Source of the DNA: a bacterium D16-76
GTDB taxonomy: Bacteria; Bacillota; Clostridia; Oscillospirales; Acutalibacteraceae
Length of the DNA: 59,547 nt
Reading direction: 5' to 3'
Assembly: GCA_009917445.1 (NCBI GenBank)
Contig: QZEE01000023.1
Span: 1-59,547 of the forward strand
The position numbers and the translations under genes were made by a program. Each line of letters starts with the position of its first letter. The first letter of the stretch is position 1. The notes under the pieces are model-generated. The model was not told the DNA's origin. It did not search any database and saw only the letters and a program-made list of their open reading frames with translations. Below are positions 1,018 to 51,923 of this stretch, piece by piece.

Positions 1018-1861
1018 GCCGTGCGACACCTCGCATTCTCAGGGATTTGCTCCGTAAAGGCCAGCCCGGCGACGAGATGAAAGGTCAGCCGGGAGTTATC
1101 CACGACCGTGATACTCTGGACAATTTCCTCGAATAACGCTTGGCTAAATGGTGTACCCGGCACATATCCGTCCAGGGTATCGTCCAGCGACTTCAGCGTG
1201 TATATCAGTTCGTCATCTTCGTCCTCGGCCAGGGCCTTTTTTCGGTCGAGCCGCAGGGCATTGATTTTATTGCTGATTACCGAGGACTGGGCCGCAAAGT
1301 CAGTAGCGTTCAGAACACCGTTAGTGTGGAGCCGGGCGACCACCAGATTCTGTGCACTCAAATCGGCTATCTGCTTATCTATCTGCCGTATCTTTTCCTG
1401 GCTCTCGCTGCCATGATTCTGCATCATCCCCAACTGATGGATAAGAGTGCCCAGCAGGTCTTGCCGGTGAGAGGCCAGCTTCTCTGCCATCAAGCAGAAG
1501 GTGTCGAAGACGGCATTTTCCCGCACACGTCTGCTTTTGCATTTTGTGGCCCCTGCCGCCTTATCACTGCACATCCAGTACACGGTTCCGCGTAGTAGCT
1601 GTCGGCGGAAGGTACTCCCGCAGTCGGGACAGCGCAGGATACCAGACAAAATTGAGTTGTGTTCGCGCCTTGTGACCGTAATTCTGGATTCCTGCAGCCT
1701 TTGTGCTGCCTGGAATACCTCCCAGCTGATAATGGGCGGGTTGCTGTTTTCCACATAATATTGGGCCTTTTCTCCGTGATTTCGCTTTTTGCGGAAGGGC
1801 ACCGTATCCGTAGTGTACTCCTTTTGCAAAAGCGCATCGCCCATATACCGTTCGTTTGCCA
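1014..1861 (-). pseudogene. 3' half of a serine recombinase gene split by ICE insertion
   Basis: The reading frame encodes the middle and C-terminal parts of a large serine recombinase: LANERYMGDALLQKEY, a zinc ribbon (CPDCGSTFRR ... VYWMCSDKA), a coiled-coil segment and a C-terminal tail. There is no catalytic domain, and upstream of about 1861 the frame runs into non-homologous ICE sequence with a stop at 1904-1902. The missing 5' half is at 57981-58683 on the other side of the ICE. There the protein reads up to WHHTTVDYV and then becomes unrelated. Together the halves give about 520 residues, normal for this family. A TTG at 1868 could start a fragment but has no clear ribosome site. Confidence 0.88.
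1859..1861. other. Left attachment-site core of the ICE (TGG on minus strand)
   Basis: The left junction reads, on the minus strand, GGGCTTGACATTGGCAAACG. From TGG onward it is the split recombinase gene; before it is ICE sequence. The right junction also contains TGG at the matching position. Such a short shared core fits a large serine recombinase, which exchanges strands over two bases. The exact dinucleotide (TG or GG) is inferred and needs the empty site for proof. Confidence 0.6.
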
Positions 1862-1905: not shown

Positions 1906-3483
1906 TTATCCAATAGCCATCTTCCGTAACCGCTCAAGCTCATCCTGAAACTTCCAGCGAATCTCAAGCCCGACACCAGGAAACACCAACACCTGCTCCA
2001 ATAGGCCGTCAAGGATATCTTCTGTAAGCTGTTCCGCGTCCAAATAGGGTTGCAGTCTAACGGCAAGCCCATCCTCGTTGCTGTCTGCAAGCTGGGCCTG
2101 CTCCAATACCAATCCCACCTTTGTGATTTGCTCAGACAAGGTTTCCTCTTTCTGCCGTGAGGCCGCTTTTGCCGCCAGATACGCCTCCTTTCCGACTTCC
2201 CCAAGTGCAAACGCCTCATAGTGGCTTTTCGTCTGCCGCTTGAGTTGAGAGAGCTGCTCCTGTAAATCGCTTAGATTCCGGCGCAAAGCGGTGATATCTC
2301 GAGTCTTTTCTTTCTGCTGTTCTTTAAGCAACTTGTCCACATCAACTGCCATCTGTGCCATAGACCGCAAGCTGTCCAACAGCGCTGCATGGATTTCCTG
2401 CTCTGGTATTTTCTCTCTGGGGCATGGGAACCTATCCGTCACCCCTGGAGTCCGGCAAATATAGTATGGTTCTTTTGCCTTTTTGCGCTCCATAGCATGA
2501 CCGCAGCCTCCACATCGGACTTTTGTTTTCGGCCCGGTTACCACATCCCGCTCCTTATATTCTTTCAAAGCGGCCTGTGCCCGGTCAAAATCTTCTCTGG
2601 AAACGATGGGCTCATGAACATCCGGCACAATGATCCAGTCCTTTTTGCTGACCTTCACACTATGACTTTGGCCTATTATGTCATAGTACCGTCTGCCATA
2701 AACGGTCGAGCCGGTGTACTGCTCATCGCGGATGATCCGCAAAATTGCTGCCTCTGTCCAGAAGTTCTCTTTTGAAATACAGTGCCAGTTGACGAAAGTG
2801 CTAGTGGCAGTTTTGTATTGCATAGGGGTAGGAATTTGCTGCTGATTCAGCGCCCTTGCGGTTTCTGCTATGGACATCCCGCCGCCGACCATGGCGAAGA
2901 TACGGCGGACAATTTCAGCGGCAGGCGGATCAATAATCAGGTGGTTCTTCCGCTCCGGGTCCTTTACATAGCCGTACAGAGGACGCGCCCCCAGGTACTC
3001 GCCTTTCTGCGCCCGGAACCGTCTGGCGCTGCGCGTTTTGCGGGACAGGTCACGGCTGTAGAGGTCGTAAAGCAGCGCCTTGAACGACGTGTCCAGACTA
3101 TCGATATCTTTGGGCCGGATGCTGTCAATGCCATCGTTCACGGCAATAAAGCGCACCCCCAAAAAGGGGAACACTCTGGAAACATAGTTGCCAACCGTCA
3201 GATAATCCCGGCCAAAACGCGACATATCTTTCACAATGATACAGTGGATAAGCCCCTGCTTTGTCTGCTCCAATAACTCCTTTACAGCGGGACGCTCAAA
3301 GCTCTTTCCGCTCCATCCATCATCGCAAAACTCCAAAATCTTTGCGCCGGACAGGTCAGGAGTACGCTCAATAAAAGCATCCAGAAGGTTGCGCTGATTG
3401 ACAATGCTGTTGGATTCTTCCCTACCGGACTGCCGCAAATCAGCATCTTCGGAAGATAGCCGCAGGTACTTTGCCACCGTCAT
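1906..3483 (-). CDS. Large serine recombinase 3 of the ICE integration module
   Basis: 525 residues, full length for the family. The N-terminal resolvase domain shows YLRLSSED with the predicted nucleophile Ser10 and the SRFGRD motif with conserved arginines. The recombinase DNA-binding domain follows (YLGARPLYGYVKDP), then a zinc ribbon (CGGCGHAMERKK ... YYICRTP ... CPREK), a coiled coil around residues 390-460 and a C-terminal tail. The start ATG overlaps the stop of the upstream recombinase (ATGA, 3480-3483), so the two are translationally coupled. It lies at the extreme left end of the ICE, 45 bases from the junction, where an integrase is expected. Which of the three performs integration is not visible in sequence. 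Confidence 0.9.
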   Translation of the reverse strand: MTVAKYLRLSSEDADLRQSGREESNSIVNQRNLLDAFIERTPDLSGAKILEFCDDGWSGKSFERPAVKELLEQTKQGLIHCIIVKDMSRFGRDYLTVGNYVSRVFPFLGVRFIAVNDGIDSIRPKDIDSLDTSFKALLYDLYSRDLSRKTRSARRFRAQKGEYLGARPLYGYVKDPERKNHLIIDPPAAEIVRRIFAMVGGGMSIAETARALNQQQIPTPMQYKTATSTFVNWHCISKENFWTEAAILRIIRDEQYTGSTVYGRRYYDIIGQSHSVKVSKKDWIIVPDVHEPIVSREDFDRAQAALKEYKERDVVTGPKTKVRCGGCGHAMERKKAKEPYYICRTPGVTDRFPCPREKIPEQEIHAALLDSLRSMAQMAVDVDKLLKEQQKEKTRDITALRRNLSDLQEQLSQLKRQTKSHYEAFALGEVGKEAYLAAKAASRQKEETLSEQITKVGLVLEQAQLADSNEDGLAVRLQPYLDAEQLTEDILDGLLEQVLVFPGVGLEIRWKFQDELERLRKMAIG

Positions 3484-5174
3484 AAAGCGGCCTCACTACT
3501 CAGCAGAGCGGCCAGCTTTGCATACTCATCTCGATATTTCAAGTGGATGGTGATGCTCTCGTTTTTATCCACCTCTATCCGCTGGATCAGCGCATGGGCC
3601 ATGCCCTCTGTCAATTCCGTTTCCCCGGCAAACTGAGTAAAAATTTGCAGCCATGGGTTGGATGAAGTCTGTGCGGATATGTCGGATATCTGCCGCTCTA
3701 ACTGCTCCACCTGGGCCTGCGCCCGCTCTGCCTCGGCCTGATACTGCCGTTTCATTTCGGCATATTCTAGCTCGTCCATGAGGCCATCTACATAGTTCTG
3801 GTACAAGCTGTCGTTGAGCCGTTTATAGCGGGAGAGGGCTTGTTTTACGGATGAAAGGCTGCGTTCCAGCCCACTTTTTCGGTCAACGACCGCAGGAGAG
3901 CGGGCATATTTTTTCACCTGCTCAGCCATGCCGCCAGCCAACACCATCTCCCGGCGCAAACAGTCCCACAGCACATCCATCAGCACGGTTTCATGGAGAT
4001 TCCGCTTTGGGCAGGCGCTGGGGTTCTCCATGTGGGTGCGGCAAATGTAGGTGTAATACCTGTGCCCGCAACGCTCGGAAACCGATTTATAGCGGGCCAT
4101 CGTCCGACCACATTCCGCACAGTAGACCAGCCCTTTTAAGATGTTGGGAGTGGTTCCAAGACTGTCAAATTTTCCGCACTTACTATTATGCTCTGTGCGG
4201 CGGTTCTCACCGATTTCCTGCACCTTGCGAAAGGTTTGCTCGTCAATAAGCGGTTCATGGGTATTACGCACAATGGCCCAATTATCCTGTGGAACCGGGC
4301 ACATCTTCCGTCCAGCGGCAATGTCATTTTTGGTGCGGCCTTGAATCGTGTGGCCAAGATAGACCTCGTTGCGGAGAATGATCTTGAGAATCGGAACGTG
4401 CCAAACGCTACTGGCAAACCGCTCTGACTTGATTTCCCCCCGAAGATAATGGAGGCGGGAAGGGGATGGGACGCCCATCTCATTCAGGTGGCGGGCAATA
4501 GGCAGGTAGCCCATCCCGGAGAGCCGCCACTGGAAAATATTCTTTAGCACAGGAGCCGTTTCCGGGTCAGGCTCTAAGCGGTGCCTGTCCTCCGCGCTTT
4601 TGCGGTAGCCGTAGGGAGCCCAGGAACCGATGAACTCCCCGCGCTGCTGCTTGATCGCCAGAGCAGAGCTGGACTTTTTCGAGATATCCCGGCTATAAAT
4701 CTCGTTTATCAGATTCTTCAGCGGGACAATGTACCCATCATTAGTGCGCTCGGCTGTCAGAGTGTCGAAATTGTCGTTGACCGCCACAAATCGCACGTCC
4801 AGATAAGGAAAAATCCGCTCCAAATAGTTGCCGGTTTCCTTGTAGTTTCTGCCAAACCTGGACAGGTCTTTCACCACGATGCAGTCAATTTTCCCGGCGC
4901 GGATATCCTCCATCAGCCGGTCAAACTCCGGCCTTTGGAAGTTGGTTCCGGTGCGTCCGTTGTCACAGTACAGACCGCAAAACTGCATATCCGTCTGAGC
5001 GTCAATATAGCCCAGCACTAGTTCCTTTTGGGCCTCGATGGTGTCTGCTCCCGGCTTGCCGCTGTCCTCCACGGAGAGCCGAATATATGCCCCCGTTTTG
5101 TAGATTCTCTGCGGCATAGCTGGCTCATCAAGCACGGGAACCAGTGGGTTCACTTTGCGTTTCGTCCTCGCCAC
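3480..5174 (-). CDS. Large serine recombinase 2 of the ICE integration module
   Basis: 564 residues beginning at GTG 5174 behind GGAGGCGGTTTGA. The N-terminal catalytic domain has AYIRLSVED (predicted nucleophile near Ser34) and DLSRFGRNY. The recombinase domain follows (FIGSWAPYGYRKS), a zinc ribbon (YCAECGRTMARYK ... YYTYICRTH ... CPKRN) and a long helical region. All features of an active enzyme are present. It is flanked on both sides by paralogues with overlaps or abutting ends, giving a three-gene operon. The N-terminal basic extension of about 25 residues (MARTKRKVNP) is longer than in its neighbours. Confidence 0.9.
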   Translation of the reverse strand: MARTKRKVNPLVPVLDEPAMPQRIYKTGAYIRLSVEDSGKPGADTIEAQKELVLGYIDAQTDMQFCGLYCDNGRTGTNFQRPEFDRLMEDIRAGKIDCIVVKDLSRFGRNYKETGNYLERIFPYLDVRFVAVNDNFDTLTAERTNDGYIVPLKNLINEIYSRDISKKSSSALAIKQQRGEFIGSWAPYGYRKSAEDRHRLEPDPETAPVLKNIFQWRLSGMGYLPIARHLNEMGVPSPSRLHYLRGEIKSERFASSVWHVPILKIILRNEVYLGHTIQGRTKNDIAAGRKMCPVPQDNWAIVRNTHEPLIDEQTFRKVQEIGENRRTEHNSKCGKFDSLGTTPNILKGLVYCAECGRTMARYKSVSERCGHRYYTYICRTHMENPSACPKRNLHETVLMDVLWDCLRREMVLAGGMAEQVKKYARSPAVVDRKSGLERSLSSVKQALSRYKRLNDSLYQNYVDGLMDELEYAEMKRQYQAEAERAQAQVEQLERQISDISAQTSSNPWLQIFTQFAGETELTEGMAHALIQRIEVDKNESITIHLKYRDEYAKLAALLSSEAAL

Positions 5175-6821
5175 TCAAACCGCCTCCTTTTCAGGGAGCA
5201 GCTTTTGTGCCTGTTCCACTAACTCTGCCTGCCACTCAAATTCATTGTGCCAGCGGTAGACGATCTCCACCCGCCGGTCGCGGAAAATCAGCACACGCTC
5301 TATCAGAGTGACCACGATTCGCCGGTCGAGGGACACGATATTTCTGTGCTTTATGAACTGTTCTATCCAATGATTGTTGGCTGAATTATCCAGTTCCCGG
5401 CCCATTTCCTCCCGCAGAAACTCGGCCTGCTCCTCGGCCTGGGAGCGCCGGTCCTGGTAGGTGCTTTTCAGTTCCTGATACTCGTTTTTGTCGATGATAC
5501 CGTCCGCAAGATTCTCATATAACGAACGGAGAAGTTTCTGGCAGCGCTCAATTTCCTCCTGCTTTTGAGTAAGCCGCGCTTGGATTTTCTGCACATTCGC
5601 CTGATGGAGCTTGGCAATATCAGTCAGCTCCATCAGTTCCGAGAGGTCGATCACCTCCCGGATATGCCCTTGCAGAGCCTCCAAAACAATATCGTTCAGC
5701 GCCTCCACACGCAAGGCATGGGAGTAACACTCTTTTCTGTCCTTATGTGCCCCGCAGACAAAATAGACGTACTTTTTCTTGCCGGAGGGGACGGTCTTGC
5801 GGACCATCGGCCCGCCGCACTCGCCGCAGTAGACCATGCCGGAGAACAGCTCCACCGGCTGGCCTGCCTCGGCGGTACGGGTGTCCATGGCGAGGACGCG
5901 CTGGGCCGTTTCAAATTCAGACTTATCAATTAGAGGTTCGTGGCAGTCCTCCACCACGGCCCACTGGTCACGGGGTTTATGGATGATGCGCTTGACCCGG
6001 TAGCCGGGGGTTGTCACCCGGCCCTGCTGCAAAACGCCGGTATAGACCGGGTTTTTGAGAATCCGCAGCACCATCCCGGCGCTCCACTCGGAACGCTCCT
6101 TTCTACGGAAAGCCGTGGTGTAGCGCATACCCTGGGACAGCTTGTAGTCCATGGGCGTGGGGATCCCGCTGGCGGTCAGCCGAGCCGCAATGTCGATGGC
6201 GCTGATACCGTCCAGCTTCCAGTTGAAAATGTCCCGCACCACATCGGCGGCATACTCGTCAATCACCAGTTTGTGATGGTCGGAGGGGTCCTTTTTGTAG
6301 CCGAAAACAGCAAAGGAGCCAATGAAATCCCCGCGCTGGCGTTTGATTTCAAGCTGGCTCCGAATTTTCACGGACGTGTCCCGGCAGTAAGCCTCGTTTA
6401 TCAGGTTCTTGAAGGGGAGCATGATTTCATCGGATTCAGCGTGGGGATGCAGGCTGTCATAGTTGTCATTGATGGCGATAAACCGCACATGGAGAAAGGG
6501 GAAAAGCCGTTCAATATACTCTCCCGCCTCCAGGTGGTCGCGCCCAAACCTGGACAGGTCTTTGACAACGATGCAGTTGATTTTCTTGGCCTTGACCAGC
6601 TCCATCATAGCTTGAAAGCCGGGCCTTTGAAAATTGGAGCCTGTGAATCCGTCGTCCACCTTCATGTCACATTCCCGGAGTTCCGGGTGGCGTGACAAAT
6701 AGTCCCGGATCAAGTCCTTCTGACCCGTGACGCTGTTGCTTTCCTCCTTGTCGCCGTCCTCCCGGGACAGGCGAACATAGCCGCAGGTGTTCCACACCTG
6801 GACAGCAGCCATTTCTTGCAT
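5175..6821 (-). CDS. Large serine recombinase 1 of the ICE integration module
   Basis: 548 residues from ATG 6821, chosen because GGAGAG lies seven bases upstream; an in-frame ATG at 6869 has no such site. The catalytic domain shows GYVRLSRED and DLSRFGRDH, followed by the recombinase domain (FIGSFAVFGYKKDP), a zinc ribbon (YCGECGGPMVRK ... YFVCGAH) and a coiled coil. It is the first gene of the three-recombinase operon. The 130 bases upstream hold no gene and should carry the promoter; TGGACA-17-TAAGCT near 6916-6944 is a weak candidate only. Confidence 0.9.
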   Translation of the reverse strand: MQEMAAVQVWNTCGYVRLSREDGDKEESNSVTGQKDLIRDYLSRHPELRECDMKVDDGFTGSNFQRPGFQAMMELVKAKKINCIVVKDLSRFGRDHLEAGEYIERLFPFLHVRFIAINDNYDSLHPHAESDEIMLPFKNLINEAYCRDTSVKIRSQLEIKRQRGDFIGSFAVFGYKKDPSDHHKLVIDEYAADVVRDIFNWKLDGISAIDIAARLTASGIPTPMDYKLSQGMRYTTAFRRKERSEWSAGMVLRILKNPVYTGVLQQGRVTTPGYRVKRIIHKPRDQWAVVEDCHEPLIDKSEFETAQRVLAMDTRTAEAGQPVELFSGMVYCGECGGPMVRKTVPSGKKKYVYFVCGAHKDRKECYSHALRVEALNDIVLEALQGHIREVIDLSELMELTDIAKLHQANVQKIQARLTQKQEEIERCQKLLRSLYENLADGIIDKNEYQELKSTYQDRRSQAEEQAEFLREEMGRELDNSANNHWIEQFIKHRNIVSLDRRIVVTLIERVLIFRDRRVEIVYRWHNEFEWQAELVEQAQKLLPEKEAV

Positions 6822-6969
6822 TTTGTTCTCTCCTAACTGTTTGGGGGTAAGAACATTCCTGTTCTTCAATCAGCAAGACCCCAACAGACAGAGAGCGCCG
6901 GTTATCCTATTGCCGACAGCTTAACATAATTTCTCGGCTTTGTCCAGGGGTTTTGCAAAAAATTCATCC

Positions 6970-8993: not shown

Positions 8994-9436
8994 TCATCCT
9001 CTCTGTTTGTTCTCCCATGATATAGGGGTGCAGCGGACACAGCGCCAGCCTTGCTGGTATGAAAAAGCTATTCGGCTGTGTCCTTGAGTTTGGCTCTTTG
9101 AGCCAAACTCCCAGCTTGTCGTAATGCAATACCCAAACTCACTTTGGCAAGTGACGCGATATCTTTGTATCCCCCTTTGACCCTGCGGTACGGGATTTGC
9201 GGATGCTCCACCACGCTTCGGGCGGTGCCGGGGCCGGTCAACAGCCAAGGGGCGCTCGTGCCTTTGAGGTTATCTTTCGACGGTATCTGAATATTACCGC
9301 AGGCAGTCTTGGCGGCTGGGCTGTGCCGCAGTGGGGCGGTGTTTGGGTGCTGCTATTTTGCTGTCAAGGTTCTGTAAGGAGCATATATCTCCCTACTCTA
9401 TTAGCCGGTAGATTGCATGGCTGGTCCGCTTTTTCC
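8994..9436. other. Non-coding stretch between parB-like and sigma-like genes
   Basis: Four hundred and forty bases with no open frame that looks like protein in composition or start site. It is the 5' region of the parB operon read on the minus strand. The one clear structure is a perfect inverted repeat at 9086-9110. GC-rich short frames here look like noise. Confidence 0.5.
9086..9110. repeat. Perfect inverted repeat upstream of the parB-like operon
   Basis: GAGTTTGGCTC, a three-base loop, then GAGCCAAACTC: eleven paired bases. It lies about 95 bases before the parB start. There is no T-run on either side, so it is more likely an operator, parS-like site or mRNA leader hairpin than a terminator. 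Confidence 0.6.
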
Positions 9437-9889
9437 TCATTTTTCTTCCAAAATTTTTCTCAGCTTGGAGAGAATGGCATTTTTTCTCCTATGTAGAGTG
9501 GTTTTTGCTAAGGAGAGAGCAGTGCTGACCTCCCGCTCTGTACGGTCCAGGTAGTATAGCTCTTGAATGAGCTGCCATTCTTCGGCAGACAACGAATGAA
9601 GGGCCTCTGTCAAACATTCCAGCAGTTCCTTCTTATCCAGCAGTTCTTCAGGACCATCACTTTTCTCTACGAAATACTGAGGATGAGTCTCGATCAGGCG
9701 TTCAACAGAATCTTCGCGGCCAGGCTTGACAGTGATTTTTTCGCCATCAATCCTGATTTGTCCACGCTTAAGGTCTTTCATAATGTAGCGTTCCTTACGC
9801 TGGCCGCGCTGGTATTCCTTATAAACCTCCTCGGACACTTCGATTTTGCGTCCGTCAATGTCAATTACCCTTTTGTCATTATTTTTCAC
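9437..9889 (-). CDS. Sigma-70 region 4-like HTH regulator
   Basis: 150 residues from GTG 9889, which has GGAGGTAACAAAC in front; the open frame continues upstream to 10129 but that part crosses two hairpins and has no protein-like character. The C-terminal half holds a sigma region 4 pattern (LSAEEWQLIQELYYLDRTEREVS then ALSLAKTTLHRRKNAILSKLRK), a DNA-binding helix-turn-helix. No region 2 is present. Small sigma-like proteins of this type are usual in Tn916-related elements. A stem-loop that includes the ribosome binding site (9901-9934) suggests translational control. Confidence 0.75.
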   Translation of the reverse strand: MKNNDKRVIDIDGRKIEVSEEVYKEYQRGQRKERYIMKDLKRGQIRIDGEKITVKPGREDSVERLIETHPQYFVEKSDGPEELLDKKELLECLTEALHSLSAEEWQLIQELYYLDRTEREVSTALSLAKTTLHRRKNAILSKLRKILEEK

Positions 9890-9900
9890 GTTTGTTACCT

Positions 9901-9934
9901 CCAGGATTTGAATTTGTTGAAAATCAAATCCTGG
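9901..9934 (-). promoter_or_regulatory. Stem-loop that covers the ribosome binding site of the sigma-like gene
   Basis: CCAGGATTTGA, a twelve-base loop, then TCAAATCCTGG, eleven perfect pairs. On the minus-strand mRNA the 3' arm runs into GGAGG of the ribosome binding site for GTG 9889. Folding would hide part of that site, so opening of the hairpin could switch translation. Confidence 0.6.
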
Positions 9935-10011
9935 AGGTGGGGCGCGTGGGCCAAAGGGCCAATGAACTAGCTTAAAAGCGTTGCTTAATCCTCTCAAAGC
10001 CCCAAAACGGC

Positions 10012-10048
10012 AAAAAAGTAAAAGGGATATGAAAAAATCATATCCCTT
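10012..10048 (-). terminator. Rho-independent terminator or attenuator
   Basis: AAGGGATATGA, a loop of five bases, TCATATCCCTT (eleven pairs), then TTACTTTTTT on the minus strand. It lies 95 bases downstream of the agrD terminator and 120 bases before the sigma-like gene. Either it backs up the first terminator or it ends a short leader transcript. Confidence 0.65.
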
Positions 10049-10141
10049 CTCACGATAAACTATTTTTGAGCATACCTTTACGCCGACAGGAAAATTTTTT
10101 GCGGCGAAAGAGGCGGCAGTAGAATACATATTAGGTTCATC

Positions 10142-10180
10142 TAAAAAGAAAAGCCGGTCAGGCGTGTCTCCTGACCGGCT
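10142..10180 (-). terminator. Terminator of the agrBD transcript
   Basis: AGCCGGTCAG, nine-base loop, CTGACCGGCT, followed by TTTTCTTTTT on the minus strand. It lies 14 bases after the agrD stop codon, the expected end of the signal-gene transcript. Confidence 0.85.
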
Positions 10181-10193
10181 ATTTCTTTAGAGC

Positions 10194-10313
10194 TTACTTC
10201 TGGAGCTCTTCGGGGACTTTCGGCTCATAGCCATATCCATTGGAAGTGAGCCCAGCACCCAGGTTTGCAAATGCCTCAATAATAGAGGCGATTGCAGCCC
10301 ATACACTACTCAT
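10194..10313 (-). CDS. agrD: AgrD-type autoinducing peptide precursor
   Basis: A 39-residue frame with an amphipathic N-terminal helix (MSSVWAAIASIIEAFANLGAG), a central segment TSNGYGY and the acidic tail EPKVPEELQK. The tail matches the AgrD C-terminal recognition pattern. Alignment with staphylococcal AgrD places Ser24 where the ring-forming cysteine normally stands. The product would then be a lactone rather than a thiolactone, with a predicted ring Ser-Asn-Gly-Tyr-Gly or one residue longer. The start overlaps the end of agrB by eight bases, as in true agrBD pairs, and a terminator follows. AgrB should cleave and cyclise it at the membrane. Ring size is inferred. Confidence 0.88.
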   Translation of the reverse strand: MSSVWAAIASIIEAFANLGAGLTSNGYGYEPKVPEELQK

Positions 10314-10908
10314 ACTGATTTCTCCTTTCCTGTATTTTGGGAACTATCATCAATATGGCTACAGCCATAAGTGATGCAGAAAAAAGCGACATCCAAATTA
10401 AGCTGCCAGTCAAAAATGAGAGGCACGGAAAAAGCAACTCAAATACTGCCACCAAACACCTCGACACTTTCTGGTTCCTCATATAAATTGTTTCAGACAA
10501 AGGATGGTTTCTGTGTCTAATTGGGGCAAAGAAAAGAACGATTAGACCAGATAAGATTTGTGCAGATAATAAAAGCGGAATCGAGGAAAAGCGGAATAGA
10601 ATTTCTGAAATCAGCACTACAAGGAGGTAGACCACGTTTGTTAGAAAGAAACATCTTAAATATGTATTAGCATGGAAACCACCAGAGAAAAGTCTTGTCC
10701 AGAAAAAAACGATAAAGAACATCAGAGCAGATAAAGGTTTCCCCAAAAGGATAGAAATAGTCAAAATGGAGAAGGATGAGCATAAAGCTGATAGAATCAA
10801 CTGAAAGCCATAAATAAATGTCGGACGTTTAGAAAGCGAAATAACACCTTTTTTATACATGAACTCAGTCATTGCGATTGCAGCTTTCTCTAACATATGT
10901 ATCACCAT
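10306..10908 (-). CDS. agrB: AgrB-type peptide-processing membrane protease
   Basis: 200 residues, normal for AgrB. Several hydrophobic helices surround the catalytic motif SGGFHANTYLRC, with His79 and Cys86 spaced seven apart exactly as in S. aureus AgrB (His77/Cys84). It should cut the AgrD C-terminal tail and form the ring at the inner face of the membrane. It ends inside agrD (eight-base overlap). It is preceded by its own promoter with AgrA-box-like repeats at 10935-11004, so it is likely autoinduced. The start is uncertain between ATG 10908 and ATG 10896; neither has a strong ribosome site. Confidence 0.9.
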   Translation of the reverse strand: MVIHMLEKAAIAMTEFMYKKGVISLSKRPTFIYGFQLILSALCSSFSILTISILLGKPLSALMFFIVFFWTRLFSGGFHANTYLRCFFLTNVVYLLVVLISEILFRFSSIPLLLSAQILSGLIVLFFAPIRHRNHPLSETIYMRNQKVSRCLVAVFELLFPCLSFLTGSLIWMSLFSASLMAVAILMIVPKIQERRNQYE

Positions 10909-10934
10909 CTTTTCATCTGCCGTTCTCTGACTTT

Positions 10935-11004
10935 ATTCTACAACAGAATTGATAAGAAATCAGGTGTTTTGCGCGAATTGTTGGATTTTATGTATTAAAT
11001 TGTA
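10935..11004 (-). promoter_or_regulatory. Putative AgrA-activated promoter of agrBD
   Basis: On the minus strand: -10 TAGAAT (10940-10935), a 17-base spacer and a poor -35 CTGATT (10963-10958). Just upstream is CAACAATTCGCGCAAAAC, and 22 bases earlier ACAATTTAA, which overlaps the agrC stop. Two direct repeats about two helical turns apart before a weak -35 are the usual LytTR (AgrA) arrangement. The same module lies before the secreted-protein gene at 14546-14614. Confidence 0.7.
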
Positions 11005-12323
11005 TGAGAGCAAATCAGCACCGTAGAAATGAAACATCCCTCTGAATATTCATTTTTTAATGAGCCATTATACTTTTGCGCAATATCTTGTATGTTTTTC
11101 AGGCCAAATCCATGCGCTACTGTGGAATCCAGTTTTGTCGAAGCTAGATTTTTGTTATTCAAAAAAGGGTCTGCGGTAACTCTATTTGCCACTTTGAACA
11201 GCACAAAACCTTCCTGCTGCCGAATATCTATCTGAACTTTGCGTCCGTTCTCTACCTTTTCGCAGGCTTCAAAGGCATTCTCTATTTGGTTAGACAGAAT
11301 AGCGCAGATATCTGCTTGTTCGAATGAGGACAAATCTTCTACGCGCACTTCATAATCGACATCAATTTGTTTCTGCTTGGCTTCACTTAATTTTGCGTTG
11401 ATTACAGCGTCTATAACGTTATTTCCACTATGACTTAGCTGTGCTGGCGTAACTGAAATCGTTAGAACTGAGTGGATGTATTCTGTAATCGAGCCAACAT
11501 CCCCTCTTTTTGCCAAAGCATCAACAACTGAAAGATGATGGTGAAAGTCGTGCATCGTTTGTGCGTTAGAAATAATATTTTCATTCAATATATAGTAATT
11601 CTTTTCCATGTTCTGGTTTAAGTTGGCTAACATTTGATTGGTCGCTTTTTCTTTTTCAGAAACAGTAACCACTATCATAGAAAAAAAGAGAATAAAGATA
11701 AAGCACAATAAAACGAAAAACGAGATAATTGCTGCTCCCTGCAATTGTATGAAGTCACCATGCAGTACCATTGCGATAAGGTACTGCATAGTTCCGTAAG
11801 CCAGCGTTATACACATCAATAGGAAAGCCATTATGCGGTTTCGGATTCCAGACAATTTTGTTAAATGCTTTTTAATCCATAGATATAATAATATGTCGCA
11901 CACTTTATCAATCACAAGATAAATGATGCGTATTATTCCGGGCTCCAGAAAATCATAGAAAAGCTCTCGAGGATTTCCAAGCGGAAATGTCACGCCAATT
12001 ATGAGGATATAATCAATTGATTGGATAACGAAAAGAGCCAGTACACAAGAGGTTGCCCGCAATAATACTTTTCCATCAGAAACTATTTTTCCGACTATAA
12101 AAATCGAAAACAGCATTGTACCGATTGGAGTAAGAAAGGAGAAAGCTGATAAACTGTTCATAAACATAAGGTACAATGTTGACAAAGCTGCGAAGAAAGC
12201 TGTAATTCGTATGATTTTTCTTGTGGAATATTTTGAACCAGATGCAACACTCATGGTGCTAAGGATCAGAATACTCTCAACAAAACTGGCCAAGATTTCA
12301 GCACAGGCACAAAGTAATTCCAT
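10995..12323 (-). CDS. agrC: AgrC-type sensor histidine kinase
   Basis: 442 residues. The N-terminal half (about residues 1-220) is hydrophobic with six or seven membrane spans, the peptide receptor part. The dimerisation/phospho-acceptor segment is MHDFHHHLSVVDALAKRGD near residue 255, and the GHKL ATPase domain carries an N box (LSNQIENAFEACE) and G box (HGFGLKNIQDIAQKY). This is the AgrC/HPK10 type. It starts one base after the agrA stop. It would sense the cyclic AgrD product and phosphorylate AgrA. Confidence 0.88.
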   Translation of the reverse strand: MELLCACAEILASFVESILILSTMSVASGSKYSTRKIIRITAFFAALSTLYLMFMNSLSAFSFLTPIGTMLFSIFIVGKIVSDGKVLLRATSCVLALFVIQSIDYILIIGVTFPLGNPRELFYDFLEPGIIRIIYLVIDKVCDILLYLWIKKHLTKLSGIRNRIMAFLLMCITLAYGTMQYLIAMVLHGDFIQLQGAAIISFFVLLCFIFILFFSMIVVTVSEKEKATNQMLANLNQNMEKNYYILNENIISNAQTMHDFHHHLSVVDALAKRGDVGSITEYIHSVLTISVTPAQLSHSGNNVIDAVINAKLSEAKQKQIDVDYEVRVEDLSSFEQADICAILSNQIENAFEACEKVENGRKVQIDIRQQEGFVLFKVANRVTADPFLNNKNLASTKLDSTVAHGFGLKNIQDIAQKYNGSLKNEYSEGCFISTVLICSHTI

Positions 12324-13040
12324 TTATTTCCCTCCCCATAGCCGCATAATGGCATCTTTTACTTTGGGCATCATAGGGCGGCTAATCGGCAGACGCTCTC
12401 CATTTTTCATGACCATCCAGTTACCGTCTATCGCACGGGCGAAATCAAGATTGATAAAGTAACTGCGGTCTGTAAACACAAACCGGGGATCGTTGATTGA
12501 TTTAAATAGTTCCTTGATTCCACGATTGTCGGACAAGGAACCCTGTTCAGTGGTGACAATCTGCAAGCTGCGGTAGTTCTTCCTGACATAAATAATATCA
12601 TTATATAGCACTCGAGTCACGTTACTATAATGAGATACCATGAGACACAATTTATCTGAATCTGTCAATGACTTTAATGCTGTTTCTAAGGCTTCTGGCA
12701 ATTCTTCGGTCATCTTATTCTTCAATATATACCTAAGAGCCTTAACGGCATATCCCTTTGTAGCATATTCGAGAAAAGATGTTAGAAAAATGATTATAGC
12801 CACTGATTGAAATTTTCGGATAACTTCGGCTACATCCATCCCACTTGACCCCGGCATTTCCACATCCAACACATAAATATCAAAGCGGTCCCCATCAATA
12901 ATTGATGATATCAGGGCCAATGGCTTGATGTAGGTTTTGATTTGAAAAGAGTAGCTTGCTGTTTCCATATACTTTTTTGTGAGATCCTCTACCTCCCTCA
13001 GAATAACCTCATTGTCATCCACGATAGCAATTTTAGTCAT
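12324..13040 (-). CDS. agrA: AgrA-type LytTR response regulator
   Basis: 238 residues. The receiver domain has acidic residues near the start (IVDDNE), phospho-acceptor Asp59 in YVLDVEMPG and a conserved lysine. The C-terminal LytTR DNA-binding domain (about 140-238) includes IIYVRKNYRSLQIVTTEQG and FVFTDRSYFINLDF. LytTR proteins bind paired direct repeats upstream of weak promoters, and such repeats are found at 10935-11004 and 14546-14614. It overlaps the end of the 172-aa gene by eight bases and abuts agrC, so all three are one transcript. Confidence 0.9.
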   Translation of the reverse strand: MTKIAIVDDNEVILREVEDLTKKYMETASYSFQIKTYIKPLALISSIIDGDRFDIYVLDVEMPGSSGMDVAEVIRKFQSVAIIIFLTSFLEYATKGYAVKALRYILKNKMTEELPEALETALKSLTDSDKLCLMVSHYSNVTRVLYNDIIYVRKNYRSLQIVTTEQGSLSDNRGIKELFKSINDPRFVFTDRSYFINLDFARAIDGNWMVMKNGERLPISRPMMPKVKDAIMRLWGGK

Positions 13041-13551
13041 ACAGTTTATCTCCCAACATGAATTTGTAAGTGCATTTTCTATTTATATCAAACCAGTAGT
13101 TTACACTATCTGTAATAATTAGAACGTATAAATCATTTAAGCTCCTCCGATTCTTTGGGTTTAGATTGCTATTATAACAAAACATCCCTGGGACACCTGA
13201 TAGGAGCTTTCCTTGAACTTCACTTAACACATTATCTATGGTTGCGGAATGATATCTTGAGGCAGTCCAACGTGGAATAGCTCTCCGAATATCGCCTTTA
13301 GTAAATGACAAATTTGCCGAAGGTCTTGGAGCATATGCAATAAATGTTTGTAAGTCATTCTCTGTATAGTGACTAAGTGTTGAGTATAGAGCGAGGATGT
13401 CATAGTAATCCACTCCCGATTTGCAAAGAATTTGGAAAGTATCCATTAGCAAGCTGTGATTTTCACTGAATAGGCTTTCCTGCCTTTCAGATAGGCTTTT
13501 TACAAGTTCTTCAATCGTGCTTTTCGATGTGCACCGAAGCATATAATCCAT
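13033..13551 (-). CDS. Unknown 172-residue protein, first gene of the agr receptor operon
   Basis: I do not recognise this protein. It is soluble, mixed in charge, helical in the first half (STIEELVKSLSERQESLFSENHSLLMDTFQILCK) and has no signal peptide, membrane span or metal motif. It overlaps agrA by eight bases and is first in the transcript from the promoter at 13608-13636, so it probably works with AgrA/AgrC, for instance as a modulator or anti-activator. AT-rich codon use matches agr and differs from the ICE backbone. Confidence 0.65.
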   Translation of the reverse strand: MDYMLRCTSKSTIEELVKSLSERQESLFSENHSLLMDTFQILCKSGVDYYDILALYSTLSHYTENDLQTFIAYAPRPSANLSFTKGDIRRAIPRWTASRYHSATIDNVLSEVQGKLLSGVPGMFCYNSNLNPKNRRSLNDLYVLIITDSVNYWFDINRKCTYKFMLGDKLYD

Positions 13552-13607
13552 TATATCACTATTCCTTTCTTCTCAGCCGTGTGTCTATAATGTGGCCCAA
13601 CATATGT

Positions 13608-13636
13608 ATTATAAGACTGTTTTGCGCAAAATGCAA
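13608..13636 (-). promoter_or_regulatory. SigA-type promoter of the 172-aa/agrA/agrC operon
   Basis: On the minus strand TTGCAT, 17 bases, TATAAT: near-consensus and about 50 bases before the start codon at 13551. Unlike the agrBD promoter it needs no activator by sequence, so the receptor genes may be expressed constitutively or under repression by the adjacent XRE protein. Confidence 0.7.
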
Positions 13637-13658
13637 TAGAGCAAGCATTTTAGGTAAT

Positions 13659-13676
13659 GGAATGGTTTCCCATTCC
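13659..13676. promoter_or_regulatory. Palindrome between divergent agr operon and XRE gene
   Basis: GGAATGG, four bases, CCATTCC. It lies upstream of the agr receptor promoter and overlaps the expected promoter region of the XRE gene (candidate -10 TAAAAT 13680-13685). A natural candidate operator for the XRE protein encoded next to it. Confidence 0.5.
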
Positions 13677-13720
13677 TTGGTAAAATATTTAAGATAGGGG
13701 GAAGGAGGTGCCAAACAGAG

Positions 13721-14056
13721 ATGGCTCTTGGTGATAGGATTAAGGAATTGCGGATAATGAGGAAGATGACTCAGGAACAAATAGCTGAGAGATGTAACGT
13801 TTCTACTTCCACTGTTTCCCGGTGGGAAAGCAATCGGTCAACACCTATTCATAAACATCGAGTTCTTCTGGCTGAGACGTTGCAAGTTGATGAGAACAGT
13901 TTGTTTGTAACTCCTGATATTACCTTGCCAGAAAATGTTCTGATAGAGGAAGTTGTGCAAGCCATGAAGCAGATGTCTTTTGACCAGCAGAGACTTCTTC
14001 TGTATATGGCACACGGACTTCTGAAGTTTTCCGAAACAGGGAATGAATCCAGGTAA
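13721..14056 (+). CDS. XRE-family helix-turn-helix regulator
   Basis: 111 residues. A classic HTH_3 domain fills residues 3-60 (LGDRIKELRIMRKMTQEQIAERCNVSTSTVSRWESNRSTP). The C-terminal 45 residues are helical and may dimerise. GGAAGGAGGTG lies 12 bases before ATG. It is transcribed divergently from the agr receptor operon with a palindrome between, so it probably controls that promoter and its own. It is the only plus-strand regulator in the window and belongs to the AT-rich cargo island. Confidence 0.88.
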   Translation: MALGDRIKELRIMRKMTQEQIAERCNVSTSTVSRWESNRSTPIHKHRVLLAETLQVDENSLFVTPDITLPENVLIEEVVQAMKQMSFDQQRLLLYMAHGLLKFSETGNESR

Positions 14057-14693
14057 TCCCTACCTTACACTTCCAGAATCTCTAGTTGTTCTTCGTGGTG
14101 CGCAGGGGATTCATCTTTGGCTACCCTCAATATTATAGCACATTTTCTTATTTTTTGCCGGTTCCTGTCTGAATTGTCATGTTATCCGTATTAATTTGTA
14201 AGAATTTCAAAAAAGAGAAAGATATCGAAAAGGGTGAATTGAATTCGTCCTTCCCATTTTCCATTTTTTAGTGTCCTAAGCTGTGTCTATACAAGTGTGC
14301 ACACGTGGCTTTTCAGTCCATTTTACCCTCTTCTGTGTTAAAAAATTTTGGAGTGCGGAAAGTACGTCTGCTATTTTTTCCTTGAATCAGGTAAAACGCT
14401 CTCGAAAATCTCCATATTCAACTCATGTAGACACCGCTTAGTAATATTGCGTACATAAGGCGTATATATGAATATAATGATGATGTATCGCTCCTATTCC
14501 AACGACTGGAATCGTGGGAAGACGATTATTCTATTGTCGGTTAACAACAGAATAATCAAAAAAAATAACAGTTCATGCAAAACCACTGATTTTCTTGCAA
14601 TCTTGTGCTAGAATACAAACAAATCAAGGCATAAACGATGGCCATCGTAAATGCAGCGATTACAGAAAATTTTTTACAGAGAGGATGGATAAA
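14057..14693. other. Long AT-rich intergenic region before the secreted-protein gene
   Basis: Six hundred and forty bases without a convincing gene. The last 150 bases hold the AgrA-box promoter. Earlier parts contain many short imperfect repeats and T-runs but no structure I would name. Its length leaves room for a regulatory RNA. Confidence 0.4.
14546..14614 (+). promoter_or_regulatory. Putative AgrA-activated promoter of the secreted-protein operon
   Basis: Direct repeats AACAGAATA and AACAGTTCA stand 21 bases apart, followed by TGCAAAAC, weak -35 CTGATT (14586-14591), a 17-base spacer and -10 TAGAAT (14609-14614). The run from the second repeat through the -35 is nearly identical to the agrBD promoter (AACARTTCRYGCAAAAC, then CTGATTT). 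The transcript would start near 14621, giving a leader of about 70 bases. Confidence 0.72.
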
Positions 14694-15080
14694 ATGAAAA
14701 TCGTCAAAAGGGTGCTAGCTATGTGTGTGGTGTGCGTGTTGTTGATGTCAGCTGTAGCACTCCCTGCGTCTGCTGCGAGCACAACCGACTACCTTTATCA
14801 GAGCGAAAAGTCGAAAACGTTGACATTAAACGGGATGTTTCCCAGCGGTTCAGGCTCTTTGATGACCTATGCTGCATCCAAGGATGGAGTCAACTTTTAT
14901 TTGGATTGCTCTGTGGGTGGAGGTGAATGGAAAAACAAAAAGCACATTATGTGCAATCCGGGAACGTCTGACTCAACTGGTACAATCTATCCTGGGAATT
15001 CATACTGGCGTGGCGTTATGAATTCTTGGTGGCCTAACGGTGAGAATTGTTATGCGAAAGGCACCCTTACCGCCAACTAA
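14694..15080 (+). CDS. Small secreted protein, candidate Agr-controlled bacteriocin or effector
   Basis: 128 residues from ATG 14694, chosen because AGAGAGG lies about nine bases upstream. A Sec signal peptide is clear: KIVKR, hydrophobic core VLAMCVVCVLLMSAVALP, cleavage after PASA near residue 27. The mature part of about 100 residues is rich in Gly, Ser, Trp and Tyr, has three cysteines (CSVGG, IMCNPG, ENCYAK) and ends TLTAN. I recognise no family. The layout of signal peptide, downstream large membrane protein and ABC ATPase recalls lactococcin-972-type bacteriocin loci, but sequence similarity to lactococcin 972 is not evident. Its promoter matches that of agrBD. Confidence 0.8.
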   Translation: MKIVKRVLAMCVVCVLLMSAVALPASAASTTDYLYQSEKSKTLTLNGMFPSGSGSLMTYAASKDGVNFYLDCSVGGGEWKNKKHIMCNPGTSDSTGTIYPGNSYWRGVMNSWWPNGENCYAKGTLTAN

Positions 15081-15218: not shown

Positions 15219-17033
15219 ATGCCCATAACCGAAAGGAGAAACAATAACTTTTGGTCAATGAAAGGGGGTGAAGTAAAAGAACTTTCGATGGTTTTGTGTC
15301 GTTCTCCACATTTGTTGATTGGAATAATCATTGAACTTATTGTCATTCTTGCTATTCTTATTTATACTCTTGTGCAATTTGGGAGCGACCCTCTGCTTTA
15401 CTTTCAAATAGCCCATGTCACATGTGTGTTGATGTTCTTGTTTACAGTATATTCATCGTATGAATATATTTTTACTATCCGCAAAAGTGGAATAGAAGAA
15501 GTAGTAGTAGCTCAGTGCAAAGCAAAGGGCTCATTATACGGTATCGCTTTTTTTATCCTTCTAGTTCCTGTTCTTACAATCTCGTTTATCGAATTTCTTT
15601 TCGCAGCATTTTCTTCTATCTGCCAAAATATGCCGGTCTCATTATACGTTCACATTTTTTGGGGGACTTTCCTTGATAGCTTATTGAGCGGGATATTAGC
15701 TATATGTATGGGAATGTTTTGTGGATTGCGGTTAGAGCGCATAAAAAGTTATTCATATATAGCTGCTTTTTTCTTTTTAATGATATCCGCTTCAGAGTTG
15801 ATTCCTGGAATCCTCAATGATGGCTACCATATTGATATTTGGCCAATAAAAAAGCTTTTTAGTAGTATTTTCCTTCCAGACCAGGATTGGACGATTGATT
15901 ACCAATATGGATTACAGATTGAACCTTTTCGGTGGAATTGTGTTCTGTTTTGGTGTTTCCTATTTTTTGCAGGTGTCATTTCGAAAGTTTCTCAACATTC
16001 ATCAAAAATACGGCTACCTCTCATAGGTATATGTCTTGTTTTTTCTCTAACTAATTTATGGGGATTTTTTCACAGCGGAAGCGTAATTGATTTGAGTGAA
16101 GCCCCAAACAGTGTCTTTCGAACCGATCAAGTGTATTACCGTAACGAATATCCTCGAGAAGAACCCGCTGACTTCCAAATCTCGTCATATGATATGCATC
16201 TTCACATTGGAAGACAATTGAACGCAAATGTATCAATGTCGGTGACAGCTCTTGAGTCATCAGATGCATATAGATTCACATTGTATCATACATATCATAT
16301 TAATCGCGTATATGATGAGAATGGAAAAAATATACCTTTTTTTCAGGACGGAGATTACTTTACTGTCGCATCCGATAATAATGTAAGGATAATCACTGTA
16401 GAATATGAAGGGTTCAGCCCTATGTTCTATAGTAACCAACAAGGTGTATGCTTGCCAGGGTGTTTTCCATATTATCCCTGGGCAGGATATAAGCAAATTT
16501 TTTATACTACACCAGATTCAGAAGTAGGACTTGCCAGTTTTATCCCGCGTACAGATTCACCCAAAGCAACTTATTCAGTAAACCTTTCAAGCAGCTCCCC
16601 AATCTATTCAAACTTAGGGGTACTCCAGTCAAAAGAAACTGTATGTGGGACAACAAACGGACTGTCCCTTATGAGCGGTATGCTAGAAACAAAAGAATTG
16701 GATGGCTATGTAATGATTTCCTGCTGGTCCCAATCCGACTTTTTTCATTTCTCTCCCGAGTATTTTGACACTCTACAAGAGACAATCACGCACTTAGAGG
16801 AAGAGAGAGGATACGATGAACATATTGACCTCAAGAAGTATACCCTCTTTGAAACTAATGAAACTATGCTAAATCGATGTGGATATGGGTTGGCTGTTCC
16901 TTTTGATGATCACATTTTTTTGGCTGCCTATCCTGATGTAAAATGCGTTGCTCAAGCAATTACATATTTTATCCACGAAGGACCGCCTCTAACGATAGAA
17001 GAAAAAATGCAATCGGAAGGAGTACTGCCATGA
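15219..17033 (+). CDS. ABC transporter permease fused to an M1-peptidase-like domain
   Basis: 604 residues, start supported by TAGGAGGGATTGTA. Residues 1-300 hold about six membrane spans in an ABC-2 permease pattern. Residues 315-604 form an extracytoplasmic part beginning FQISSYDMHLHIGRQLNANVSMSV, with a beta-rich pattern like the N-terminal domain of M1 aminopeptidases. The zinc motif HExxH is absent, so it is probably a binding rather than catalytic domain. It overlaps the ATPase gene by four bases (ATGA). In this context it likely exports, or protects the cell against, the small secreted protein encoded upstream. Confidence 0.7.
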   Translation: MPITERRNNNFWSMKGGEVKELSMVLCRSPHLLIGIIIELIVILAILIYTLVQFGSDPLLYFQIAHVTCVLMFLFTVYSSYEYIFTIRKSGIEEVVVAQCKAKGSLYGIAFFILLVPVLTISFIEFLFAAFSSICQNMPVSLYVHIFWGTFLDSLLSGILAICMGMFCGLRLERIKSYSYIAAFFFLMISASELIPGILNDGYHIDIWPIKKLFSSIFLPDQDWTIDYQYGLQIEPFRWNCVLFWCFLFFAGVISKVSQHSSKIRLPLIGICLVFSLTNLWGFFHSGSVIDLSEAPNSVFRTDQVYYRNEYPREEPADFQISSYDMHLHIGRQLNANVSMSVTALESSDAYRFTLYHTYHINRVYDENGKNIPFFQDGDYFTVASDNNVRIITVEYEGFSPMFYSNQQGVCLPGCFPYYPWAGYKQIFYTTPDSEVGLASFIPRTDSPKATYSVNLSSSSPIYSNLGVLQSKETVCGTTNGLSLMSGMLETKELDGYVMISCWSQSDFFHFSPEYFDTLQETITHLEEERGYDEHIDLKKYTLFETNETMLNRCGYGLAVPFDDHIFLAAYPDVKCVAQAITYFIHEGPPLTIEEKMQSEGVLP

Positions 17034-17845
17034 TGAAAATTACTCAATGTACCAAGCGTTTTCACAAACGCATTGCGGTAGATCGGCTCAGTGCCTCTTT
17101 TGATACAGGCGTTATTGGGTTGCTAGGCCCTAATGGCGCGGGGAAAACGACCCTTTTACGCTGTATCTGTGGGATATACAAGTTAAATGAAGGTTCCATT
17201 GAGGGCGCAGAAAATGGTGTTGGCTATTTGCCTCAACAATTTGGAATGTTTCGGGCGTTATCTGTTTATCAGATGATGGAATACTTTGCCTCGCTAAAGA
17301 AAATACCTAAGCACGCACAAAAAGACGAAATTGAGCGCTGTGTGGAACTTGTTCATCTTTCTGACCGTCTAAGTGCTCGCATTTCCACCTTGTCTGGCGG
17401 TATGATTCGTCGCTTAGGAATTGCACAGGCTTTGTTGGGAAACCCCGAAGTAATTCTATTTGATGAACCGACCGTTGGGCTTGATCCAGAGGAGCGCATC
17501 CGATTTAAGAATGTTGTAGCGTTGCGGCGGCATCAAGGTATCACGCTTATTTCTACCCACATTGTCAATGATGTGGAGGCTGTTTGTGATACAATTTTGA
17601 TTTTGAATGAAGGACATTTGGTTACATCTGGCACTTCTCACCAAATTGCACAATTGGCGTATGGGAAAGTTTATATGCTTTCTGAAGATCAAGAAAGCAA
17701 TTTGCATGGTTTGTTCTTTGTGAAAGATCGTGTGGAAGAGGATGGAACAAGTTACTTGCGCGTGTTGTCACCAGATGCACAGCCTGGAAAACAAATTGAA
17801 CCTACTATGGAGGATGGATACCTATGTGCCATCAAAAACTACTGA
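17030..17845 (+). CDS. ABC transporter ATP-binding protein
   Basis: 271 residues starting at ATG 17030 after GGAAGGAG, overlapping the permease stop. Walker A is GPNGAGKTT (33-41), the Q-loop region GYLPQQFG, the signature LSGGM near residue 120, Walker B VILFDEPTVGLD near 142 and the switch histidine in ISTHIVNDV. About 75 C-terminal residues extend beyond the nucleotide-binding domain, typical of drug or bacteriocin-immunity ABC-2 ATPases. It pairs with the permeases on both sides. Confidence 0.93.
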   Translation: MMKITQCTKRFHKRIAVDRLSASFDTGVIGLLGPNGAGKTTLLRCICGIYKLNEGSIEGAENGVGYLPQQFGMFRALSVYQMMEYFASLKKIPKHAQKDEIERCVELVHLSDRLSARISTLSGGMIRRLGIAQALLGNPEVILFDEPTVGLDPEERIRFKNVVALRRHQGITLISTHIVNDVEAVCDTILILNEGHLVTSGTSHQIAQLAYGKVYMLSEDQESNLHGLFFVKDRVEEDGTSYLRVLSPDAQPGKQIEPTMEDGYLCAIKNY

Positions 17846-18477
17846 AAGAATTGTCAATATTTCGTCCGATGTTGCGAAAAATGGGGGCTATTTATTTTGT
17901 CCCTCATTTATTCTTGTATGTGCTGATTCCCTTATTGGGGATAGGGTATATGCTTTACCATCAAGATGTTGAAAGTATCCGTGGCCTTGTTTTCTACGAC
18001 TTTCAAAAATTTATTCCTTTCATGAGCATCTGGTGGGTTCTATTTGGATTGAATGACTATGTAGAAGGCGATTCAAGTGAGCTACTACGAGTATACAAAC
18101 ATTCCCTTCTACCAGACTTTTGGTTGATTTTTGGTTGGTACATTCTGCATGTCGTAATTCTTTTTCTCATATTCGAACTGTTACTGGCGAATTACTGGGG
18201 GGATTTTCTTCTCATCGTAACACAGTCGCTGGCATTTGCCGGTTCCGCTTTCTGTCTGTTGTGCGTTACGCGCACTTTGATGGTTCCCTTTCTTGGTATG
18301 CTTTTATATGAAATATTCGCGATGCTGTCTAATTTTGGTGCATTAGCATATGTGAATTTGTTCTCTTTACAACGGATGAGGGGAGTATCGGATTTTATCA
18401 TTCCCTATTCTATCGTGCTAGCCGTTTCATGCATACTCCCTTTTCTAGGCGATTTTTTCTTTCAAAAAAGAAAATAA
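17824..18477 (+). CDS. Small ABC-2-like permease subunit
   Basis: 217 residues with about six hydrophobic segments (FVPHLFLYVLIPLLGIGYML, IPFMSIWWVLFGL, LIFGWYILHVVILFLIFELLL and others) and no other domain. It begins 22 bases inside the ATPase gene behind GGAGGATGGATACCT. Last gene of the plus-strand operon. Together with the 604-residue permease it likely forms a heteromeric transporter. No specific family name is justified. Confidence 0.75.
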   Translation: MCHQKLLKELSIFRPMLRKMGAIYFVPHLFLYVLIPLLGIGYMLYHQDVESIRGLVFYDFQKFIPFMSIWWVLFGLNDYVEGDSSELLRVYKHSLLPDFWLIFGWYILHVVILFLIFELLLANYWGDFLLIVTQSLAFAGSAFCLLCVTRTLMVPFLGMLLYEIFAMLSNFGALAYVNLFSLQRMRGVSDFIIPYSIVLAVSCILPFLGDFFFQKRK

Positions 18478-51748: not shown

Positions 51749-51923
51749 GTAAGACCTCCCTTCATAGGCAAATATCCGGTTCCTGAACCACATGGGGCCA
51801 GGGCGGCTCCGGCTTGGAAACGGTCATTTCCTGCGGTTCGCCCAGCCCCATTTCCTCCAAAATCTTCTTCTGTTCTTCCTGCAATGGCATCGCTCCCTTC
51901 TCGATATATCGTAAATTATCACA

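Follow-up and report, generated by a model that had tools for sequence, protein, structure and literature searches.

The DNA analysed here, called the window below, is one entire contig (QZEE01000023.1) of 59,547 bases from a 3.78-Mb genome in 148 contigs, and it carries an Agr-type quorum-sensing locus on an integrated element of conjugative type. At 10194–13551, all on the minus strand, five genes are ordered u172–agrA–agrC–agrB–agrD (Table 1). A first-pass annotation, made from the letters alone, had described a complete Agr circuit within an integrative and conjugative element (ICE), and family matches, the VirB4 and VirD4 genes of the element and its defined ends all bear this out. The catalytic HxxxxxxC pair proposed for AgrB corresponds to His79 and Cys86, which are invariant in 15 of 15 aligned AgrBs. 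As described earlier, agrD overlaps agrB by eight bases, agrC adjoins agrA with both products matched to families, and a terminator-like hairpin lies 3' of agrD (10180–10152, minus strand); the 39-aa frame read as agrD scored well above the cut-off of its family model. The N-terminal half of AgrC is hydrophobic. AgrA matched its domain families, and the equivalog model for AgrA of the Staphylococcus aureus type gave just 41.9 bits against a cut-off of 400. Judged from sequence, the Agr-type circuit at 10194–13040 is complete, with every Agr feature that a sequence can reveal in place; the range to 13551 also takes in u172, a 172-aa open reading frame without a convincing family match.

The predicted ring of the signal is Ser24-Asn-Gly-Tyr-Gly28, followed by the tail YEPKVPEELQK. 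AgrD of S. aureus has Cys where the window's AgrD has Ser, and its register was used in placing the cut. Counting back from the YEP tail would give a five-residue ring, with the exact cut after Gly28 or Tyr29, and this fits the Ser ring of about five residues that had been proposed for the locus. In a gapless alignment of 11 AgrD sequences, Ser24, Gly26, Tyr29, Glu30 and Pro31 were invariant and positions 25 and 27 varied. Among 18 further profile matches (scores 75.9 to 21.5 bits), the ring position was Ser in 16 and Cys in 2. We therefore rejected the earlier suggestion that a Ser lactone or a Gly-containing ring is exceptional: because Ser and Gly26 are kept among homologues (both in 11 of 11 close sequences), they appear to be traits of the close family, where both are the rule. 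A 39-aa AgrD of like form follows agrB in 12 of 23 distinct AgrB loci (the window and 11 others), the 23 being those with a tblastn hit; eight more loci gave none. Set against these sequences, AgrD is evidently not a chance open reading frame. In one genome (G022; genomes, contigs and loci are cited by our G, C and L numbers), AgrD is identical at two agr loci 55 kb apart (L035 and L038; G022:C1, 2136428–2137139 and 2191992–2192691). From near the end of agrB onwards, the two loci are 94% identical over 2.2 kb, and their AgrB, AgrC and AgrA are only distantly alike, a pattern that looks like exchange of the signal gene.

In S. aureus, the P2 and P3 promoters are immediately preceded by two direct repeats to which AgrA binds (PMC4227749). 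We found a predicted promoter of this type in the agrC–agrB gap of the window, with direct repeats ACAATTTAA (11003–10995) and ACAATTCGC (10981–10973) set 22 bp apart. An exact ACARTT pair at a spacing of 21–23 bp occurred once in the 59.5 kb, both strands included, and in none of 20 shuffles. The spacing recurs: in 15 loci whose agrC–agrB stretch is at least 100 bp (5 of 20 were shorter and were excluded), a repeat offset of 21–22 bp ranked among the top ones in 11, whereas 300 rounds of shuffling gave 2.6 such loci on average and 7 at most.

Copies of this promoter lie beyond the neighbouring XRE-family regulator gene. When the agrB promoter of each element was used to search 20–60 kb of it, with one shuffle per element, the best match apart from that promoter itself was located past the 3' end of the XRE gene in all eight elements tested. 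Ten agr–u172 loci have the XRE gene; two (G012 and G010C10) were excluded because their agrC–agrB gap holds no promoter to serve as query. Scores, each followed by that of the best shuffle, were 56/36 in G000 (the window's element), 52/32 in G010C90, 56/34 in G004, 54/32 in G009, 48/30 in G022B, 44/26 in G015, 34/30 in G220 and 32/32 in G027, so that six elements stand clearly above the shuffle and G220 slightly. The window's match is the predicted promoter before the cargo operon, and the next best match in the window scored 34. A second allele group (G004, G009, G022B and G010C10) has the word TTAGACA at the same places; allowing at most one mismatch, it has 3, 3, 2 and 2 sites in the four contexts and none in 24 shuffles. 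A scan of the gap beyond XRE with each element's own repeats matched 18, 18 and 17 of 20 repeat bases in G004, G009 and G022B, values reached in 0 of 200 shuffles. A leftward site, antisense to XRE, accompanies the rightward one in the window, G027, G009, G004 and G010C10, and in G022B with two mismatches. These DNA sites point to likely outputs of the circuit, which goes beyond the first-pass annotation. A further match to an element's own agrB promoter was seen in G015:C8 (L052) at about 17375 on the plus strand (38, shuffle 26), downstream of agrD and ahead of a small helix-turn-helix gene.

Table 1. Features of the Agr-bearing element in the window (coordinates are window positions; promoters are predicted).
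Feature	Position	Strand	Remarks
Integrated element	1857–57970	.	Inserted in a resident recombinase gene; 56.1 kb
Three tandem large serine recombinases	5175–6869, 3480–5174, 1906–3483	−	Pfam Resolvase, Recombinase, Zn_ribbon_recom
Sigma-70 region-4-like protein	9437–9889	−	After agrD; Pfam and NCBIfam sigma matches below cut-off
Hairpin pairing the GGAGG ribosome site of the sigma-like gene	9897–9938	−	Folds in 6 of 6 elements, −22.5 to −26.0 kcal/mol
agrD	10194–10313	−	39-aa signal precursor; NCBIfam TIGR04223, 30.9 bits (cut-off 19)
agrB	10306–10908	−	Membrane peptidase/cyclase; Pfam PF04647, 110 bits (cut-off 23)
AgrA-type promoter of agrBD	10935–11003	−	Direct repeats; −10 TAGAAT (10940–10935)
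agrC	10995–12323	−	Membrane sensor kinase, GHKL; Pfam HATPase_c_5, 79 bits
agrA	12324–13040	−	Receiver and LytTR DNA-binding regulator; Pfam Response_reg and LytTR above cut-off
u172	13033–13551	−	Conserved 172-aa protein; overlaps agrA by 8 bases
XRE-family regulator	13721–14056	+	Pfam HTH_3; divergent from u172–agrAC
Leftward AgrA-type promoter	14131–14200	−	Antisense to XRE, towards u172–agrAC; −10 TATAAT (14136–14131)
AgrA-type cargo promoter	14547–14614	+	Repeats 14547–14555 and 14568–14576, 21 bp apart; −10 TAGAAT (14609–14614)
Secreted protein	14694–15080	+	First cargo-operon gene; signal-peptide-like N-terminus; no family match
Membrane protein, ABC ATPase, membrane protein	15219–18477	+	Rest of cargo operon

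The cargo that follows the rightward promoter differs between elements. In the window, the gene for the secreted protein is followed by an exporter-like set in which the ABC ATPase (16943–17845, Pfam ABC_tran) lies between two membrane proteins without a family. Secreted, exporter or maturation genes were present in seven of the nine stretches examined beyond XRE. G004 and G009, the only elements with cargo in common, encode a radical-SAM/SPASM-type protein, an acyl carrier protein-like protein, an S8 protease and a 271-aa protein. An ABC transporter belongs to the cargo of G009, and in G004 an ABC match of 23% lies further on. By these family matches, which in G004 are strong but below the curated NCBIfam equivalog cut-offs, the cargo of this pair is a cluster resembling those for ribosomally synthesized and post-translationally modified peptides (RiPPs). 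Other secreted or permease-like proteins, mostly judged from their N-termini, are encoded in G022B, G010C90, G027 and G010C10.

On the other side of XRE lies u172. Ten of 148 related genomes have it, at 13 places in all; 12 of these are directly before agrA and one (G010:C147) is at a contig end beside XRE. It was met twice more beside agr, in G220 and G474. The XRE gene stands beside u172 in 10 of the 14 agr–u172 loci, and we rejected the idea that agr sits at an arbitrary place, since the order in which it stands with XRE and u172 is found at other loci too. The u172 product gave no Pfam match and just two NCBIfam matches, with E values of about 0.09; its invariant residues fall in two motifs, P.WT....H...I and SN...Y.L...DI.R (spacing abbreviated). 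Our guess is that it is a partner of AgrA or AgrC. A test for a palindromic XRE operator was not significant in the window (P 0.135) or in nine other elements (P 0.165 to 1.0).

The limits of the element could be set by comparison with L046, a relative with an unoccupied site in which a large serine recombinase gene is uninterrupted. Because the two flanks of the window (1–1856, 80% identity, and 57971–59547, 82%) align to the adjacent L046 bases 12907 and 12908, we take the element to be 56.1 kb long and to be inserted in the resident recombinase gene. Like conjugative elements of the CD1110/CD1115 type, it encodes a VirD4 (410 bits, cut-off 250) and a VirB4 (746 bits, cut-off 325) above the cut-offs of the models for that kind (NF045971 and NF045973); its points of difference are the agr block and three serine recombinases, and none of the window proteins scanned with Pfam was recognised as a relaxase. 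PrgI, ParA/ParB and RepA_N are also present. The features of an ICE found here are a site-specific recombinase, VirB4/VirD4, and defined ends with an unoccupied site in a relative. The first-pass annotation had called the circuit ICE cargo: it does lie inside the element, but cargo is an imprecise word for a locus placed between the cargo and the recombinases, beside the XRE regulator.

A collinear relative, G004:C11, matches 15 of the 16 open reading frames between 18690 and 41613 at 56–96% identity, and its ParB and DUF6551 proteins are about 90% identical to those of the window. Identity is 34–41% for u172, AgrA, AgrC and AgrB, 67% for AgrD, 35% for XRE, 43% for the sigma-like protein and 34–40% for the recombinases. 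By this comparison the agr block of G004:C11 is in the same place and strongly diverged. Relatives of TraE with at least 73% identity numbered nine, the window's included, and four were too short or rearranged for agr to be judged; agr shares a contig with the TraE gene in the window, in G004 and in G010:C90, is probably part of the same element in G009, where the two are on separate contigs, and was absent from the fetched stretch of G000:C70. Elsewhere in the element, the sole Rfam match in the window was a group II intron domain (42046–42199) in the transfer region, beside a 3189-aa polyvalent protein (42224–51793) with methylase-like and SNF2 helicase-like stretches and weak matches to anti-phage models. 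The gene at 25670–31705 encodes a 2011-aa surface protein that combines thioester, T-Q ester and SpaA domains; a further SpaA protein and a sortase adjoin it.

We propose that an autoinducing Agr quorum circuit is a regulatory core of the 56-kb element and controls an exchangeable secreted cargo, a reading in which we have somewhat more confidence than doubt. By analogy with the protein families, AgrB would cleave the 39-aa AgrD and close it into a Ser lactone with roughly five residues (SNGYG or SNGYGY); AgrC would sense the lactone, and AgrA would then be phosphorylated. The DNA sites suggest that AgrA acts at three promoters: that of its own signal genes agrBD, a rightward one for the neighbouring secreted-peptide/ABC-exporter cargo, and a leftward one that runs antisense to XRE towards u172–agrA–agrC. 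At a high density of carriers, the circuit would work against the XRE regulator and activate both itself and the exchangeable cargo. The first-pass annotation had suggested density control, whether of the element or of its cargo; the AgrA-type promoter copies before the cargo operon speak for the cargo, whereas for the element itself the indication is one of position. With the recombinase module located after agrD, excision may also be linked to the circuit.

Several observations weigh against this proposal. The own-promoter match of G027 does not exceed its shuffle, and the best match in G220 is directed towards XRE rather than away from it. The window's leftward site matches 15 of 20 repeat bases (P 0.08 in the own-repeat scan), and that scan missed the rightward site in G000 (13 of 20, P 0.80), G027 (13, P 0.74) and G010C90 (14, P 0.27). 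An unsupervised repeat scan found nothing in the XRE–cargo gap of G000, G010C90, G220 and G012. A regular-expression pattern gave no site in either G010C90 or G015, and in G220 and G022A none besides the agrB site, and its null (mean 0.15, maximum 1) is optimistic because the pattern was written after the sites had been seen; likewise, the pattern for the TTAGACA group was rewritten after its first form had matched G010C10 alone. G004, G009 and G022B are related and so not independent. No secreted or exporter cargo was recognised beyond XRE in G015 and G012. Because the G022 loci with divergent AgrB, AgrC and AgrA have identical AgrD, some agr copies may not work.

The circuit might instead mainly control the element, its signal density setting excision and transfer through the sigma-like, ParB-like and recombinase genes. 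A recombinase gene or fragment lies at most 7 kb downstream of agrD in 9 of the 12 u172-bearing agr loci that could be judged (in G012 and G010C10, of 14 such loci, the contig ends at most 0.5 kb from agrD). Eight of the nine are of the serine type (two on the opposite strand, one a fragment), and the ninth is a tyrosine integrase beside a tRNA-Arg gene (G013); by comparison, the fetched stretches of 15 other AgrB loci gave a serine recombinase match in 2. In addition, G010:C106 has the same ParB–DUF6551–DUF6870–recombinase module without agr, preceded instead by genes for a LexA-like repressor (S24) and an ImmA-like protease (M78); in ICEBs1, repression is relieved by the protease ImmA, according to a review (PMC6540685). 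These observations make control of the element plausible, but in the window, to which the scan of transfer genes as a whole was confined, no AgrA-type site above the shuffled level lies before the genes for the sigma-like protein, ParB, the recombinases or transfer. Moreover, two terminator-like hairpins separate agrD from the sigma-like gene, G031, G474 and G015 have agr–u172 without a recombinase match in the stretch examined, and recombinases are common, with 54–63 first-look candidates in G000, G010 and G022. We give control of the element an appreciable but lesser chance as the main role of the circuit; it is compatible with control of the cargo. The spacer between agrD and the sigma-like gene (9890–10193) folds far better than its shuffles (z −7.6), and a regulatory RNA leader there is possible.

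Agr loci are widespread in Bacillota, and the element might have picked up an ordinary host locus that acts on chromosomal targets and is not specially tied to the genes around it. This would agree with AgrB matches on 10 plasmid records and with the three agr–u172 loci that lack a recognised recombinase. We consider it improbable: this AgrD is patchy, occurring in 12 of 398 genomes at the level of the family, 9 of 394 at that of the order and 5 of 391 at that of the class (each figure includes the window's genome), that genome has a separate, distantly related AgrB on another contig (G000:C113:1660-2193), and the agrB-promoter copies are within the element, beside cargo. A single scan of the genome_contigs set found three distant AgrB loci, a search of viral_contigs found no relatives of AgrB or u172, and DNA similarity of 9400–14100 to plasmids and phages was nil. 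The variation of AgrD positions 25 and 27 among homologues would suit a cyclic peptide that is no self-signal but an antimicrobial or a decoy aimed at other strains; this seems highly improbable, since the window has agrC, agrA and, ahead of agrBD, an AgrA-type promoter, and all of these recur at other loci.

A broader form of the cargo-control proposal would describe a whole family of elements with a self-contained quorum switch. In these, Agr and XRE would be opposed through the AgrA-driven antisense promoter, and allele-specific promoter copies (ACARTTC or TTAGACA) would put any secreted-peptide or RiPP cargo beside XRE under density control. The switch, exchangeable with an SOS-type LexA/ImmA module, would also time excision through the adjoining recombinases. 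We offer this tentatively and regard it as doubtful in its entirety.

The output promoter of S. aureus agr precedes RNAIII, whereas here it is predicted before a protein cargo operon. The window's locus also differs from that system in the Ser of its AgrD, in its gene order, in its place on an integrated element and in the XRE gene between the operons. The two have in common the AgrB, AgrD, AgrC and AgrA set, and AgrA-type repeats at the signal-gene promoter and at a second output promoter, as far as the source describes them (PMC4227749). Agr genes on a mobile element are also reported for the Clostridioides difficile phage phiCDHM1 in the available part of PMC3901668; the window, in contrast, has AgrA and its predicted sites. 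ICEBs1, with RapI–PhrI and ImmR–ImmA, likewise joins peptide signalling to an integrated conjugative element, but its receptor is of the RRNPP type, whereas here a membrane kinase and a LytTR regulator are predicted to control cargo, not transfer; in the available part of that review, peptide signalling by Gram-positive conjugative elements is of the RRNPP/pheromone kind (PMC6540685). We did not find the arrangement described in the literature searched (titles and abstract openings, with most subscription journals and bioRxiv outside the scope). On the sequence evidence, what is new here is the place of the Agr circuit on the element, its promoter set and its exchangeable cargo, and because of these the system counts as a new variant of Agr. 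If the proposal is true, the element, not the host, would decide when its carriers make the secreted product, and copies of the agrB promoter would provide a simple search rule for density-controlled RiPP or bacteriocin-like cargo.

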